DNA of 64,000 nt from Antedon mediterranea (taxonomy: Eukaryota > Echinodermata > Crinoidea > Comatulida > Antedonidae), in NCBI RefSeq assembly GCF_964355755.1, contig NC_092670.1, positions 459,001 through 523,000 on the forward strand, given 5' to 3'. Shown here in pieces: positions 3,841 to 14,332 of this stretch. A program made the translations under genes and the position numbers. Within the stretch, counting starts at the first letter, position 1, and each line of letters opens with the position of its first letter. The notes under the pieces are model-generated. The model did no database searches. It was not told the origin of the DNA and was given only the letters and a program-made list of their open reading frames with translations.

Positions 3841-6800
3841 TTATTCATCATCGCCATCATCCTCATTTTCGTCATCACCATCCTCGTCTTCTTCATCAGA
3901 ACTGAATGTACTGTCTGGGATGTTGTAGATTCGAATCATTGGCTGAAAAAGAACAAAATGTTGTCAACGAATGTCATTGGAATACAACTTTGAAAACTAT
4001 CTATCTATCCACTATAATGATAATAATAATGCGACATTTATATAGCGTTATTTTGTAAAGATCAGAGTGCTTTGAGTGTTTGTTGATTATTATCTAGACT
4101 CTGAGGAGCAGGAAATAAGCTAACCAAAGACAACCCAATAATGATGGTTGTAATTTTTGACTAACCTTATTAGGATCTTTAAGAATGAGATATTTGCCTT
4201 CATCCAGCTTAAAACAGAGATCTATAATACACCTCAATATCCCCCAAGCGTTGTCCATGTTTAAGTTGATCTGTGCTGCTAACTCACTTGGTTTGAACTG
4301 CTGTGAGCCTAGGATGACATGCTGAGACGAATCCTTGGGATTGACACGTGAAACATACCTTCACAGGTAACAAATATGACAGCATTATTAAGTGTTTATG
4401 CACGATACTGCAATGGTACTTATGTACAGTATGTGTTTATTTTTTCCACCCACATATTTTAATGACTACCAGATCAGTTGCAACATAATGATGTTTAGAA
4501 AGTAATAAATATTTATCTCAGATATAATAGTATCCACATATTAACTTTAAGACAGGGATAACAAATAACATCATTGATAACAATTTATTGATTTGACACA
4601 GAAGCCATCAACATCTTCAAATGCTGCTTCATTTCTGTTTTTTTTTATACCCAGAATACCAAATACTGCACCATACTTACCCAAATTTGATATAGTCAGA
4701 GCCAGCCATAAGAGCACACATTGTCCACTTGGCCAGCTTAAAGCTGTTGTTCTTTACTTCAGTAGCTAGCACTGCACCTCGCTGACTATCTAGTTTCTGA
4801 CGCCACTCAGCTGCAGCTGTTGCCTGGTAACAAGAACGCAATCAATTGTTTAAGTTTAAATCAGCAGTTACATGAACACTGTTACACAGTTACATAGACA
4901 GTGATAGCCAGTGGAGTAGTAGACTCAGGCCCTGTTCAGACCCATGGCGTTAGACCGTTTTAGCGTACAACGTTACTATCAAGGTCACGTTACAAACCGC
5001 AGAGAAAAAAACGAGGTGTTCAGACCCATAGCGTACGATTATCGTTACAACGGAAGTACGTCATCCAAGTTGTTTCTAGTTGCATATTCATGTGCTCTTA
5101 CCCACGTGTTTTCATCATTATTTCCACTGTATACAGGCCTAGATCTCAGCCCTACAATTATGACAAAATTTGCCGTAAATAAAACATACCTCAGCATTTA
5201 TTTAAGAAAAATATAGTAAAGCCAAATTTCTGTTTCTATTGTTTTTATTTTGTAGTAAAAAACATTTTCCCCAGGCTCTTGTGTTACGAAAATAAAGCAG
5301 GCCTCGTAATGATGAAGAAAAAAATGATTGTGATTAGTCTATCCAGTCCAGTCAAAGATTATATATTCTTTGGTCCAGTCGGTTGAAAATAACCCTTAAC
5401 TTGTTAATAAAAGGGAAACAGCTCCCCTTGTTTGTTTACTGATTTTTTTAGGAGTTAGGGGGTTTTCAGCATTAAACTTGTCCAGTCTAGTCTGCCTTGT
5501 ATGAATGAGTGACTTGATGTCCCAGGCTAGTTTTTAGCTTGAATGAAATGCGTGAATGGCTCTAGGCCTAGCTAGGCCTAAAAGCGGATGGGATCGTAGT
5601 CCCTATGTTTAAATACAAGGTGCATGTATTTATGTCATTTGTTAGAAAATATAATGGTAATCAGTTGATAATAGTTTGTAGCCTTTGTAACAGTTGTATT
5701 TGTAGTGTAGTTAGGCCTTATTTATTCTGGCCTTTTTGTTATTGAAATCCATCTCACACATTGACGATACAAGATGTCAGCCTAGGTCAAACCTTGTTTC
5801 GCGTCATAACAGGAAACGTTCTGATTGGATACAACGTTGACTTACAGTAGCATCGTACGCTAAAACGGTACTATCAACCGTTTTCCACTACAACGCTACA
5901 ACCGTTGTACAACGCGTTGTACGCTAATCCCCAACTGTTCAGACACACATTCTTTTAGCGTCGTACGCTAAAACGGTCTAACGCCATGGGTCTGAACAGG
6001 GCCTTAAACTATACATAGACAGCGATAGCCAGTGTAGTAGTAGACTTCAACTATACATAGAGAGCGAGAGCCAGTGGAGTATTAGACTTCAACTATACAT
6101 AGACAGCGATAGCCAGTGGAGTATTAGACTTAAACTATACATAGACAGCGATAGCCAGTGGAGTAGTAGACTTCAACTATACATAGACAGCGAGAGCCAG
6201 TGGAGTATTAGACTTCAACTATACATAGACAGCGATAGCCAGTGGAGTATTAGACTTCAACTATACATAGACAGCGATAGCCAGTGGAGTATTAGACTTC
6301 AACTATACATAGACAGCGATAGCCAGTGGAGTATTAGACTTCAACTATACATAGACAGCGATAGCCAGTGGAGTATTAGACTTCAACTATACATAGACAG
6401 TGAGAGCCAGTGGAGTATTAGACTTCAACTATACATAGACAGCGAGAGCCAGTGGAGTATTAGACTTCAACTATACATAGACAGTGAGAGCCAGTGGAGT
6501 ATTAGACTTCAACTATACATAGACAGCGAGAGCCAGTGGAGTATTAGACTTCAACTATACATAGACAGCGATAGCCAGTGGAGTATTAGACTTCAACTAT
6601 ACATAGACAGCGATAGCCAGTGGAGTATTAGACTTCAACTATACATAGACAGTGAGAGCCAGTGGAGTATTAGACTTCAACTATACATAGACAGCGAGAG
6701 CCAGTGGAGTATTAGACTTCAACTATACATAGACAGCGATAGCCAGTGGAGTATTAGACTTCAACTATACATAGACAGCGATAGCCAGTGGAGTATTAGA

Positions 6801-9800
6801 CTTCAACTATACATAGACAGCGATAGCCAGTGGAGTATTAGACTTCAACTATACATAGACAGCGATAGCCAGTGGAGTAGTAGACTTCAACTATACATAG
6901 ACAGCGATAGCCAGTGGAGTATTAGACTTCAACTATACATAGACAGCGAGAGCCAGTGGAGTATTAGACTTCAACTATACATAGACAGCGATAGCCAGTG
7001 GAGTAGTAGACTTCAACTATACATAGACAGCGAGAGCCAGTGGAGTATTAGACTTAAACTATACATAGACAGCGATAGCCAGTGGAGTATTAGACTTCAA
7101 CTATACATAGACAGTGAGAGCCAGTGGAGTATTAGACTTAAACTATACATAGACAGTGAGAGCCAGTGGAGTATTAGACTTCAACTATACATAGACAGCG
7201 AGAGCCAGTGGAGTAGTAGACTTCAACTATACATAGACAGCGATAGCCAGTGGAGTAGTAGACTTCAACTATACATAGACAGTGATAGCCAGTGGAGTAG
7301 TAGACTTCAACTATACATAGACAGCGATAGCCAGTGGAGTATTAGACTTCAACTATACATAGACAGCGATAGCCAGTGGAGTAGTAGACTTCAACTATAC
7401 ATAGACAGCGATAGCCAGTGGAGTATTAGACTTCAACTATACATAGACAGCGAGAGCCAGTGGAGTATTAGACTTCAACTATACATAGACAGCGATAGCC
7501 AGTGGAGTAGTAGACTTCAACTATACATAGACAGCGAGAGCCAGTGGAGTATTAGACTTAAACTATACATAGACAGCGATAGCCAGTGGAGTATTAGACT
7601 TCAACTATACATAGACAGTGAGAGCCAGTGGAGTATTAGACTTAAACTATACATAGACAGTGAGAGCCAGTGGAGTATTAGACTTCAACTATACATAGAC
7701 AGCGAGAGCCAGTGGAGTAGTAGACTTCAACTATACATAGACAGCGATAGCCAGTGGAGTAGTAGACTTCAACTATACATAGACAGTGATAGCCAGTGGA
7801 GTAGTAGACTTCAACTATACATAGACAGTGATAGCCAGTGGAGTAGTAGACTTCAACTATACATAGACAGCGATAGCCAGTGGAGTAGTAGACTTCAACT
7901 ATACATAGACAGTGATAGCCAGTGGAGTAGTAGACTTCAACTATACATAGACAGTGATAGCCAGTGGAGTAGTAGACTTCAACTATACATAGACAGCGAT
8001 AGCCAGTGGAGTAGTAGACTTCAACTATACATAGACAGTGATAGCCAGTGGAGTAGTAGACTTCAACTATACATAGACAGCGATAGCCAGTGGAGTAGTA
8101 GACTTCAACTATACATAGACAGTGATAGCCAGTGGAGTAGTAGACTTCAACTATACATAGACAGCGATAGCCAGTGGAGTATTAGACTTCAACTATACAT
8201 AGACAGCGATAGCCAGTGGAGTATTAGACTTCAACTATACATAGACAGCGATAGCCAGTGGAGTATTAGACTTCAACTATACATAGACAGCGATAGCCAG
8301 TGGAGTATTAGACTTCAACTATACATAGACAGCGATAGCCAGTGGAGTATTAGACTTCAACTATACATAGACAGTGAGAGCCAGTGGAGTATTAGACTTC
8401 AACTATACATAGACAGCGAGAGCCAGTGGAGTATTAGACTTCAACTATACATAGACAGTGAGAGCCAGTGGAGTATTAGACTTCAACTATACATAGACAG
8501 CGAGAGCCAGTGGAGTATTAGACTTCAACTATACATAGACAGCGATAGCCAGTGGAGTATTAGACTTCAACTATACATAGACAGCGATAGCCAGTGGAGT
8601 ATTAGACTTCAACTATACATAGACAGTGAGAGCCAGTGGAGTATTAGACTTCAACTATACATAGACAGCGAGAGCCAGTGGAGTATTAGACTTCAACTAT
8701 ACATAGACAGCGATAGCCAGTGGAGTATTAGACTTCAACTATACATAGACAGCGATAGCCAGTGGAGTATTAGACTTCAACTATACATAGACAGCGATAG
8801 CCAGTGGAGTATTAGACTTCAACTATACATAGACAGCGATAGCCAGTGGAGTAGTAGACTTCAACTATACATAGACAGCGATAGCCAGTGGAGTATTAGA
8901 CTTCAACTATACATAGACAGCGAGAGCCAGTGGAGTATTAGACTTCAACTATACATAGACAGCGATAGCCAGTGGAGTAGTAGACTTCAACTATACATAG
9001 ACAGCGAGAGCCAGTGGAGTATTAGACTTAAACTATACATAGACAGCGATAGCCAGTGGAGTATTAGACTTCAACTATACATAGACAGTGAGAGCCAGTG
9101 GAGTATTAGACTTAAACTATACATAGACAGTGAGAGCCAGTGGAGTATTAGACTTCAACTATACATAGACAGCGAGAGCCAGTGGAGTAGTAGACTTCAA
9201 CTATACATAGACAGCGATAGCCAGTGGAGTAGTAGACTTCAACTATACATAGACAGTGATAGCCAGTGGAGTAGTAGACTTCAACTATACATAGACAGCG
9301 ATAGCCAGTGGAGTATTAGACTTCAACTATACATAGACAGCGATAGCCAGTGGAGTAGTAGACTTCAACTATACATAGACAGCGATAGCCAGTGGAGTAT
9401 TAGACTTCAACTATACATAGACAGCGAGAGCCAGTGGAGTATTAGACTTCAACTATACATAGACAGCGATAGCCAGTGGAGTAGTAGACTTCAACTATAC
9501 ATAGACAGCGAGAGCCAGTGGAGTATTAGACTTAAACTATACATAGACAGCGATAGCCAGTGGAGTATTAGACTTCAACTATACATAGACAGTGAGAGCC
9601 AGTGGAGTATTAGACTTAAACTATACATAGACAGTGAGAGCCAGTGGAGTATTAGACTTCAACTATACATAGACAGCGAGAGCCAGTGGAGTAGTAGACT
9701 TCAACTATACATAGACAGCGATAGCCAGTGGAGTAGTAGACTTCAACTATACATAGACAGTGATAGCCAGTGGAGTAGTAGACTTCAACTATACATAGAC

Positions 9801-12800
9801 AGCGATAGCCAGTGGAGTAGTAGACTTCAACTATACATAGACAGTGATAGTAGACTTCAACTATGAAGTTTGCTCCTAAATGGAAGAAGAACGGTGTAAA
9901 CAATGTGGCAGAAAATTCTAACCTTAGTGTCCCATTCATTAAGAGTCTTGATATTGATAAAGTTAGTCTCCCCAGACGAACCAATCAGCACGGCATCATG
10001 TTCACACCTGACTATGAGGTCAATGTCATCTCCTAGCTCCCACTTACGATACCTAGAAACAAAATACCAGAATTTTATAGCAGTTATTAAAGAGAACATA
10101 AAAGAAAAACTTTCAAAAGACATGAACAGCAAATTAAAAAAATACAATGTTTAATTGAATAAACTAAGGACATTTAGCTTATTGTGTAACATTCAGTTTT
10201 ATTATCTCAGATATTTAGTGTCCACATAATCATTTAAGACAGGGATAACAAATAACATCATAGATAAGAATTGATAACAAATAACATCATAGATAAGAAT
10301 TGATAACAAATAACATCATAGATAAGAATTGATGACAAATAACATCATAGATAAGAATTGAAAACAAATAACATCATAGATAAGAATTGATAACAAATAA
10401 CATCATAGATAAGAATTGATAACAAATAACATCATAGATAAGAATTGATAACAAATAACATCATAGATAAGAATTGATAACAAATAACATCATAGATAAG
10501 AATTGATAACAAATAACATCATAGATAAGAATTGATAACAAATAACATCATAGATAAGAATTGAAAACAAATAACATCATAGATAAGAATTGATAACAAA
10601 TAACATCATAGATAAGAATTGATAACAAATAACATCATAGATAAGAATTGAAAACAAATAACATCATAGATGAGAATTTATCTTGTTTTTTTCTATGTTA
10701 AAGACACACACTATCTTATAACCCAACAACATACCTGTAGGCAACAGAAGCTACTTCTCCTTCATCGTCATCGGTGATGAATGGATTTGGTTTATCGAAC
10801 TTGAATTTTTTTTCCGTTCCCTAAAACAATAAAAAAAAATTTTTTTAAAGGACAAATTTATGAGTAACACTCTAAAATAGACCATTAGTATGCATCAATG
10901 TGCTGTTGGCCGATATGATTCAGATTCCTTTTATTATATAATTATAATGCAAATTACAGTGGCTTGCCTTAAATAAATATAAAGGGGGAAAAAATTATTT
11001 TGTTATAATATATAATACAGTAGTCAAGATTCAGCATTTATTGTCCACAACTTTGTTTTCAGACAGGGATAACAAATATCATCATACTCTTAACTGTTAC
11101 ATTAGGAAAAAAAACATGGTGATTTGATTTGATCAATTCAAGTAGAAATTGTATACAATTGTCTGGTGTGCAATGAGCATGTATCTATATGTCTGGTATT
11201 ACATACCACACCTAGAACTTGGTTCCATTTCTGGTGTAAAACGTTGTTTTGATTCATTCTTAGTTTGACTGTTCCTATTGTTATTTCTGATACTTATACC
11301 TTAACAACTGTGATTACTAATTACATTATTGAATATAGTGTTTACCTTTAAACATTGTTGAGAAAAGTTATGATTTATAAAAGTTGCTTCAAGCGCTAAG
11401 TTGCGTGGAGCATTTGTGTGAACTCCCTCTTCTTGTGGTGGTGTCAATGCTGTCTCATTCACAGTAAGTAAGTCTACATAAAATACAAAACAAGTCTGAT
11501 TACCATTGTAACATAACTAAATAACTTTCCAAGAAGTTACATACATTTTATTTTTAATACCGTAGGCTTATTTATATTAAACAAAATTATGTTCTTACCA
11601 AATTCTGAATTGTCTCTCTTGTCAAAGAAAAGTTTGTCACCAACACGCTATAAAAATAAAACAAAAAAAGTGTTTCAGTAATAGTGCGGTTGGTCTCAAG
11701 AACTTAAACACTATTCTTTAGTAATAGTGTAAAACACTGTGCTTTAGGTATAATGGAGTTGAGGTACAGAGTAGTTTCAGAATGTTACTGTCTACAGTTT
11801 TTTTGTTTTCAGACAGGGATAACAATACTCATCATGTAATCTACTGTTACATTTACAATATTTATGTTTTTTTGTCTCTATTACATTAGAAAATGGAAAA
11901 CCTCTACCAGTATATCAAAAATAATGTGAAATAGCCTTTAAGAAGTCTTAATGAACCTAAGTCAATATTTTCCAATTATATGTCAACAGCGCCACAATGA
12001 TTCATAAAATAGATTTTTGTAGTAAGAAAGTAAAAGGCATTTGGTTATTTTTGTTTTACTTACTTGTACAACAATATCCCATGAGTAGTTGGATCTGGTA
12101 CTACACATCATGGTAGCCAAGATGATGTCGGTTGCAAAAACATTTCCTTGTGGTACAAGCTAAAAACAAACATGACAAACGTTGAAGAAAACTCATATAA
12201 TGTAAATTAACATATTCAAAGTAGAAATCAACATATTCAAAGTAGAAATTAGCATATTCAAAGCATAAATTAACATAGTACAGTAATCAGGTGTATAGTT
12301 TCCACATCTCTTTGTTAAGACAGGGATAACAAGTAATCATCACATTATGTACTGCTTCAGTTAGTTAGTAAAAATAGAATTTAAATTATTTTTGTATGAA
12401 AAAAATAAAAGTATACCTTTCTAATAAGAGGGTCATCTGTTGTAGTGACCTTGTGAAAGATCCGATTGACCCTGGCTAAACGCTTTTCATTCTTGGTTGT
12501 GATACGATCGTATGCTTTATCATACTGCTCCACCTCGCCACAAGTAATGCTGAAAAAATGTGCTTTGAATTATTATTTGGAAAATACTGCATTTATACAA
12601 CATTTAATTCAATTCAATAGTAGAACATATTACAGTAATCAGGTGTATAGTTTCCACATCTCTTTGTTAAGACAGGGATAACAAGTAATCATCACATTAT
12701 GTACTGTTTCAGTATTACCTAGGTTGCTTCTAATTCTATAGTTTATTGCTGCAGTTGCTTACATGTCTTTTGGACTGGAAACATCTGGAAGCCGAAGCTT

Positions 12801-14332
12801 ACTGAGGCGAGGGAAGTCCATTTCTTCAACAACTTGCCATTCATTGCGAACTTGCACAGAAGCATCTCTGGTCTTAACTTGATTTTGTTGTTGCTTAAAT
12901 AATAAATAAAAATACAATTATTTATTGTTATTATTTACCTGTACATCTTTTTTTCCCCTGCAAATACTAAGTACAGTTAAAAAAATTACAAACTTATATA
13001 TTATTAACTTACATAACGATTACGGTTCCATCTTGATTTGCCAAATTGCTTCTGCAGACGTCGCATTTGTCGTTGTCGTTCTTTCTGTGCTTTTGTCAAA
13101 GACTGTGGATTGCTAGTGTCTTTCTGTTCTCTGCGTTCTCTTTCACGCCTCAAGTTACGCTGAAAAATATTTAAAAAGATAAGAAACAATCTGCTAAATG
13201 AGACTGAGCAGAAGAAAATATTTAGTTGTGTTTTTACAGCTCAGTAAACTCTCATAAAGTTTGAATACCTGATTAAACTTAAGTCTGTTCCTAAGATAGA
13301 TAGGTTTCTGTATCTTGGACGAGTCAACAAGCTGGAAACTAGACTCATCTTGCTCATGGTAGTACGAGTACTGAGTTCCTGAACCAAACTGTGTTTGGTA
13401 GCGACCTGAAACATGACAGAAATGGTTGGTATAAAAACTTTAATTTGGCCATAGCATAGGCAAGCAGACAATTTCTTTGAGTGAGAATGAGATTTATAAT
13501 AAAGTATCCGTGAATTATAATAATGTACATTTTAGCCTCTTTAATACATGGCCCAGTCAAAATGCCTTTCTTTCCTTTTTGTTTGTATACATGTTAATCC
13601 TTTTCCAGCGCTGGTTGGAATATAAATCTGGCATAACAAAAATGCTAATAAAATTACCTAAATATCTCTTATCTGTATATGTGGCACCAGTCCAGTCAGA
13701 TACCTGCAAAACAAATACAAATTTAAGATGAATTTATGTTAATTATCAAATTATTTCATGTATCTAAATCTATCAATTTACTTTTAGAAATAGAATATTG
13801 CAAAATATGCCTATCTAGAAATAGGCTAGATAGAGATATGCATTTGTAACCTGCTCTAAAAACAATTATATTATTTTCAATAGCGCCTAAGTAAGGGGGA
13901 AACGCTACTAGCCTAGTTTACTATAATACCCTACTACTACTACTAGAATATAGCATATACTCTTGTCAGGCTATTTATTTTTAGCAATAATTAGGCCTAC
14001 TAGTAGTACTAGTAGTCAGGCAGGCCTATTTTAGTATTAAATTATTATTATTAAAATATTAATAACGGCCTAGAATTAATCTTAATTTCAAGGCCTAACT
14101 AAACAGCCAGATTCAATTTTCTATCACAAATTCACACACGGCCACGGGTCGGTATTCCACTGGCACTCAGCACGTCAGCACTGGTCACACGGCGCGGAGA
14201 ACTTACCTTTCCCAGACGGTCGCCTTTTGAAAAGGGTTGATATGGAATATCTTTGAACTGATCTGGTAAAGTACAGGGTCCCCAGCCATCTGGGTTCTCT
14301 TGGATTGTGGGTGGCACAAAACTAATACTCAT
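3841..14332 (-). CDS. EIF3D: eukaryotic translation initiation factor 3 subunit D
   Basis: eIF3d is the cap-binding subunit of the eIF3 complex that loads mRNA on the 40S ribosome in the cytoplasm. Fourteen coding exons, in gene order: 14207-14332, 13658-13703, 13269-13405, 13013-13159, 12763-12893, 12417-12549, 12064-12159, 11599-11647, 11346-11473, 10735-10820, 9923-10052, 4681-4823, 4166-4358 and 3841-3942. All have GT-AG sites and join in frame to 548 codons, matching the human length. Family-typical stretches include GWGPC and [12 protein letters not shown] near the N-terminus, an arginine-rich segment ([10 protein letters not shown]), [39 protein letters not shown] and an acidic tail ending DDGDDE. 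The start is the first ATG and gives the usual N-terminus. Introns 5, 6, 7, 9, 10 and 12 each hold one snoRNA copy. Intron 11 (4824-9922) holds a large satellite. Confidence 0.97.
4015..4080 (-). mobile_element. retroelement 3'-tail-like fragment (intron 13 of EIF3D)
   Basis: On the minus strand this reads cgctatataaatgtcgc followed by a (TTA)n-like tract. The same tail, ggcgctatataag plus (TTA)n, ends the fragment at 37385-37516 in the opposite orientation. This suggests the 3' end of a non-LTR element. Confidence 0.35.
4513..4580 (-). ncRNA. C/D-box snoRNA copy 1, 28S guide (snR38/SNORD1 class)
   Basis: Read on the EIF3D strand in intron 12. Box C ATGATG is at 4574-4569 and box D CTGA at 4521-4518, enclosed by a perfect 5-bp terminal stem (TTATC with GATAA). 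The guide GTTATCCCTGT (4562-4552) is the exact complement of 28S rRNA ACAGGGATAAC and lies directly before a degenerate D' (CTTA). By the fifth-nucleotide rule it addresses the middle G of GGG, the site of yeast Gm2815, guided there by snR38. Confidence 0.85.
4890..9864. repeat. 42-bp satellite filling EIF3D intron 11
   Basis: About 93 units of a 42-bp monomer (core ctatacatagacagcgatag, then ccagtggagtattagac). One unit lies at 4890-4927 and the rest at 6004-9864, split by a MITE. Monomers vary at four positions (cgatag/cgagag/tgatag/tgagag, tattag/tagtag, cttcaac/cttaaac). The variant order from about 6330 to 7860 recurs exactly 1974 bp (47 units) later at about 8304-9834. The array stops about 60 bp before exon 11. 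Confidence 0.95.
4928..6003. mobile_element. PIF/Harbinger-type non-autonomous element (MITE) inside the satellite
   Basis: The 1076-bp element starts GGCCCTGTTCAGACCCATGG and ends with its reverse complement. The terminal inverted repeat continues through cgttagaccgttttagcgtac, about 42 bp in all. Flanks are tca (4925-4927) and tta (6004-6006), and the undisturbed satellite unit reads gacttaaac, so a TTA target duplication with one later change fits. TTA/TAA duplications and GGCC-type ends are typical of PIF/Harbinger. No transposase frame is present, so it would have to be moved in trans. Confidence 0.8.
10202..10267 (-). ncRNA. C/D-box snoRNA copy 2, 28S guide
   Basis: In EIF3D intron 10, sense strand. 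Box C ATGATG is at 10261-10256 and box D CTGA at 10210-10207, with the terminal stem TTATC/GATAA. The guide GTTATCCCTGT is at 10249-10239, with a degenerate D' CTTA next to it. The 5' part of this gene, up to and including box C, has been amplified into the adjoining 29-bp minisatellite. Confidence 0.85.
10243..10673 (-). repeat. 29-bp minisatellite derived from a snoRNA box C
   Basis: About 15 units of 29 bp on the EIF3D strand, core cttatctatgatgttatttg. The first unit is the 5' end of snoRNA copy 2 itself. Every unit therefore carries the 5' stem half, box C and the first guide bases (TTGTTAT), but none has box D. A few units differ at one base (gataac, gatgac or gaaaac). Confidence 0.9.
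11023..11094 (-). ncRNA. C/D-box snoRNA copy 3, 28S guide
   Basis: In EIF3D intron 9, sense strand. Box C ATGATGA is at 11085-11079, a perfect D' CTGA at 11062-11059 and box D CTGA at 11034-11031. A 7-bp terminal stem forms from GTTAAGA (11094-11088) and TCTTGAC (11029-11023). The guide GTTATCCCTGT (11073-11063) abuts D', and its fifth base (11067) pairs with the middle G of 28S ACAGGGATAAC. With copy 4 it is one of only two copies with canonical C, D' and D boxes. Confidence 0.88.
11770..11845 (-). ncRNA. C/D-box snoRNA copy 4, 28S guide
   Basis: In EIF3D intron 7, sense strand. Box C ATGATGA is at 11835-11829, D' CTGA at 11812-11809 and box D CTGA at 11780-11777. The guide is at 11823-11813. 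The terminal stem AGTAG/CTACT is set back from the boxes by a small internal loop, so it is weaker than in copy 3. Confidence 0.82.
12205..12265. repeat. short tandem repeat, about 22 bp x 3
   Basis: Three copies of aacatattcaaagtagaaat with small differences, in EIF3D intron 6 close to snoRNA copy 5. Confidence 0.6.
12280..12355 (-). ncRNA. C/D-box snoRNA copy 5, 28S guide
   Basis: In EIF3D intron 6, sense strand. Box C GTGATGA is at 12343-12337 and box D CTGA at 12290-12287. The guide is at 12330-12320, next to a degenerate D' CTTA. The 6-bp stem GCAGTA/TACTGT includes one G-T pair. It is almost identical to copy 6 in the next intron, pointing to a recent duplication. Confidence 0.83.
12632..12707 (-). 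ncRNA. C/D-box snoRNA copy 6, 28S guide
   Basis: In EIF3D intron 5, sense strand. Box C GTGATGA is at 12695-12689 and box D CTGA at 12642-12639. The guide is at 12682-12672, with D' CTTA. The 6-bp terminal stem ACAGTA/TACTGT is perfect. It differs from copy 5 at about one base over its length. Confidence 0.85.

Follow-up and report, generated by a model that had tools for sequence, protein, structure and literature searches.

Identity of the repeated units in the EIF3D introns

What the repeated units in the introns of EIF3D are, and whether six of them in one host gene is an unusual arrangement, were the questions raised by a 64,000-nucleotide stretch of the Antedon mediterranea genome (hereafter the window). 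The first-pass annotation had placed six sense-strand C/D units in introns 5, 6, 7, 9, 10 and 12 of this gene, and both the exon mapping and the splice sites agree with this placement. The exons were mapped one by one with tblastn using the human protein sequence as the query. The coding part of the host gene lies on the minus strand from the ATG in exon 1 to the TAA in exon 14 (3841..14332, with the 5′ end approximate) and is interrupted by at least 13 introns, whose splice sites were read directly. A genome search found this as the only eIF3d (PF05091) locus. All six host introns are of the GT..AG type and contain a single snoRNA unit each, in the sense direction of the host and 81 to 203 bases 5′ of the 3′ splice site. 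Intron 11 (5.1 kb) is occupied by a 42-bp minisatellite (window positions 6003-9850, ~92 copies, 96% match); with a period divisible by three, the array leaves a spurious 1294-codon reading frame open on the plus strand.

The units were numbered 1 to 6 from intron 12 to intron 5, and all of them are on the minus strand. Copy 1 lies at 4511..4582 in intron 12 (4680..4359) with its guide at 4552-4562, copy 2 at 10200..10269 in intron 10 (10734..10053) with its guide at 10239-10249, and copy 3 at 11024..11093 in intron 9 (11345..10821) with its guide at 11063-11073. Copy 4 is found at 11771..11844 in intron 7 (12063..11648; guide 11813-11823), copy 5 at 12279..12351 in intron 6 (12416..12160; guide 12320-12330) and copy 6 at 12631..12703 in intron 5 (12762..12550; guide 12672-12682). 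Each copy is ~70 nt long. The window contains exactly six occurrences of the 11-mer GTTATCCCTGT, always on the minus strand, and when one mismatch was allowed, seven matches were obtained against 0.91 expected by chance. The combination of box C (RTGATG), guide and box D (CTGA) at snoRNA spacing was found six times on the minus strand of the window and not once on its plus strand.

The membership of these units in a known family was examined with the Rfam covariance model RF00213 (snoR38), which has a curated cut-off of 45 bits. The model matched all six copies, in agreement with the earlier assignment to the snR38/SNORD1 family. Copies 1 (48.5 bits) and 3 (48.1 bits) scored above the cut-off, and the remaining four ranged from 44.2 bits, just under it, in copy 2 through 36.8 bits in copy 4 to 34.7 bits in both copies 5 and 6 (E values of 0.00015 to 0.023 in 20 kb). 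The known members of RF00213 include human snR38A (28S Gm4362), yeast SnR38 (25S Gm2812 in that paper's numbering) and plant snoR38Y (Gm2805) (PMC3511168).

The internal anatomy of the copies is uniform. Box C is AUGAUGU, AUGAUGA or GUGAUGA and box D is CUGA in all six, with 4-6 nt between box C and the guide and 28-32 nt between the guide and box D. The guide GUUAUCCCUGU abuts box D′ on its upstream side and is invariant in the six EIF3D copies and in a further copy in PRPF8 described below. The identical 11-base guide reported earlier thus held in all six, and the conserved block is in fact longer, the same seven copies sharing the 15 bases TTGTTATCCCTGTCT, which comprise the guide and the start of box D′. 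Degenerate D′ boxes (CTTA for CTGA) and C′ boxes are seen in several copies, as is often the case for these elements; copies 3 and 4 have a D′ of CTGA, and copy 6 combines box C GTGATGA and box D CTGA with a D′ of CTTA. The terminal stems are of at least four different sequences among the copies, and when the flanks of the five non-redundant copies were re-paired, pairing of each flank with its own partner ranked 1 of 120 permutations. Individually, the stems are short or modest, and those of copies 2, 4 and 6 alone were not significant against shuffles; copy 3 has a terminal stem of 8 bp with an additional outer helix.

Ribosomal target and predicted methylation

The guide had been proposed to pair with 28S rRNA, and the target ACAGGGATAAC was indeed present in the LSU rRNA of the same genome, where the guide pairs over exactly 11 bases. 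Two LSU rRNA matches in this genome hold the 28S target ACAGGGAUAAC. Both places, which are on contig 2 and were the only two found, look incomplete or rearranged, and in one of them an LSU 3′ part is followed after ~660 bases by an LSU 5′ part. The middle G of ACAGGGATAAC, predicted earlier to be methylated, is also the nucleotide given by the D′+5 rule: counting five bases from D′ in the upstream direction leads to the middle C of the guide, and this C is paired with that G. As the predicted site of 2′-O-methylation, this middle G would correspond to yeast 25S Gm2815 and human 28S Gm4362; in E. coli numbering it is G2446. Yeast snR38 is the guide for Gm2815 of 25S rRNA, a nucleotide of the peptidyl-transferase centre (PMC8307265).

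The copies were also examined for an additional guide 5′ of box D. The sequence immediately preceding that box is not conserved from copy to copy, and its complementarity to the LSU pieces examined amounted to no more than 6-8 nt; each snoRNA is therefore likely to have a single guide. The invariant guide, the stem maintained by differing sequences and the lack of a conserved second guide together argue for working single-guide snoRNAs. On the basis of these sequence features, we consider it very probable that the ancient C/D-box snoRNA snR38/SNORD1 is represented in EIF3D by six intronic paralogues, which would be excised from the pre-mRNA and guide 28S methylation. In the proposed scheme, each snoRNA would be released from the spliced EIF3D pre-mRNA, and box C, box D and the terminal stem would form a kink-turn recruiting SNU13/15.5K, NOP56, NOP58 and fibrillarin. 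The 11-nt guide upstream of box D′ would then pair with ACAGGGATAAC of 28S rRNA, and fibrillarin would 2′-O-methylate the middle G as the nucleotide opposite the fifth base upstream of D′.

Divergence of the copies and a seventh copy in PRPF8

Copies 5 and 6 had been described as nearly identical, and they were found to match at 73 of 73 bases. Their homology stops abruptly ~10 and 7 bases beyond the snoRNA. Retroposition was considered as the origin of this pair and set aside, as no poly(A) tail was seen by eye and the homology merely ends at these points. The divergence of copies 1-4 outside the guide, also noted earlier, is borne out by identities of 52-83% outside the conserved 15-mer in the other copy pairs, with copies 1 and 2 at 83% and the older copies at 52-71%. 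By identity, copies 1, 2 and 7 group together, and so do copies 3 and 4.

Copy 7 is the one in PRPF8. The 15-mer TTGTTATCCCTGTCT occurs exactly seven times in 354 Mb, every time in one of these snoRNAs, and the Rfam model together with the exact 15-mer, a search in which divergent copies may be missed, gave seven strong copies genome-wide, six in EIF3D and one on contig 3. The latter is located in a PRPF8 intron (contig 3: 5594769-5594837, minus strand; 1501-1569 of the surrounding PRPF8 piece), is sense to its host and is flanked by exons matching PrP8 domains. Its box C (AUGAUUA) is imperfect, and its terminal stem is limited to 3 bp. Further genomic candidates were rejected because no full snoRNA was present at any of them; these were a weak RF00213 match on contig 9 and 19 sites with a near match to the 15-mer. 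PRPF8 introns also contain two short repeats (~970-1100 and 2725-2880 of the PRPF8 piece) that are similar to each other, end in TCTACACTATCAAACTAGTTTGAC-like sequences and have a MITE-like appearance. The earlier view of a separate expansion with six paralogues is reasonable for EIF3D itself and has to be extended by this seventh strong copy elsewhere. The set probably arose by repeated duplication of a ~90-bp snoRNA unit between EIF3D introns, with the intron-5/intron-6 pair as the probable latest event and with one further copy in PRPF8.

These differences among the copies raise the possibility that only some of them are active and that the others are functionless pseudogene copies, either recent or in decay. 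RF00213 scores reaching down to 34.7 bits, the imperfect box C and short stem of the PRPF8 copy, and the identity of copies 5 and 6, one of which may be too young to show selection, are consistent with such a mixture. However, no copy departs from the others in the guide or the start of D′ whereas elsewhere the older copies differ by 30-48%, box C (RUGAUG) and box D (CUGA) are retained in all six EIF3D copies, and the stems are maintained by differing sequences. Partial activity is regarded as unlikely, though worth serious consideration, and the reading as six snR38-type snoRNAs in EIF3D is preferred.

Intron-10 minisatellite

Intron 10 contains a 29-bp minisatellite of 15 units (10244..10678, minus strand), as seen by TRF, by listing of the units and by partial model matches. 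Each near-identical unit represents the 5′ half of a snoRNA, comprising one strand of the terminal stem (TTATC), a box C (ATGATG) and the initial portion of the guide. The array partly matches model R1, at positions 3-26. Its final unit is the 5′ half of copy 2 itself, and through the 14 extra units a single box D is preceded by 14 additional box C elements. The other snoRNA copies are without such an array, so it is explained most simply as derived from the snoRNA, most likely by slippage. That the 14 extra 5′ halves and the six-fold dosage are functional, by tuning snoRNA processing, the extent of methylation in the peptidyl-transferase centre or EIF3D splicing, appears highly doubtful.

The reverse relationship, in which the repeats would be a mobile element or minisatellite carrying a snoRNA-like guide by chance, could draw on the richness of EIF3D in minisatellites (the 42-bp and 29-bp arrays of introns 11 and 10), on the part of a snoRNA included in the latter and on the abrupt end of the copy-5/copy-6 homology, but it is extremely improbable, given a match to a conserved Rfam family, a 29-bp array that is most simply snoRNA-derived and a genome-wide total of just seven full copies, every one in the orientation of its host and six within a single gene, with no full-length copy outside genes or antisense to a host found by the genome search with the Rfam model and the 15-mer.

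Comparison with known snoRNA families

Yeast snR38 shares with the EIF3D copies the guide upstream of D′ and the target nucleotide, 25S Gm2815; unlike this set of intronic paralogues, it is a single gene. In Drosophila, several snR38 copies are found in a non-coding host. The literature agrees with the earlier statement that the human SNORD1 genes sit in SNHG16, where SNORD1A, SNORD1B and SNORD1C are located together in the introns (PMC7154078). They share with the EIF3D copies the family RF00213, the guide, the target 28S Gm4362 and the occurrence of multiple copies in the introns of one host, but SNHG16 is non-coding and has three copies, whereas the host here is protein-coding EIF3D with six, besides the one in PRPF8.

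The unusual character that the first-pass annotation ascribed to this arrangement was overrated. New members of C/D snoRNA families arise for the most part when a copy is placed in another intron of the gene that already hosts the family (PMC8178906), a process termed cis-duplication (PMC2653536; PMC3412847). Three of the four other C/D families searched as controls were also clustered in this genome. These were SNORD14, with three copies in 1.1 kb (contig 5: 29416776-29417872) just below its cut-off, SNORD18, with five copies in 2 kb (contig 2: 15447490-15449521), and SNORD33, with three copies in 2.8 kb (contig 7: 23513358-23516197). For SNORD27, the genome search gave no match, which does not imply its absence. 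Like the EIF3D set, each of the three clusters consists of one C/D snoRNA copied several times, here within 1-3 kb, but their guides and targets differ from those of the snR38-type copies. These results point to frequent cis-duplication of C/D snoRNAs in this genome. As the process is documented in the literature and three clustered C/D families occur here, the arrangement is nothing out of the ordinary, either among animals or in this genome, and the family, its target and its mode of expansion are already known. No paper naming EIF3D as a host of snR38/SNORD1 was found in the literature searched, in which journal coverage was partial; hosting by EIF3D and a copy number of six seem to be particulars of this lineage.

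The existing knowledge of the modification and its guide is left unchanged by these findings. The locus cleanly illustrates cis-duplication of a C/D snoRNA in a gene for which the literature searched holds no known host role for snR38/SNORD1. With a graded divergence from identical to about 55% outside the guide, its copies form a small natural series on the retention or loss of redundant guide copies.
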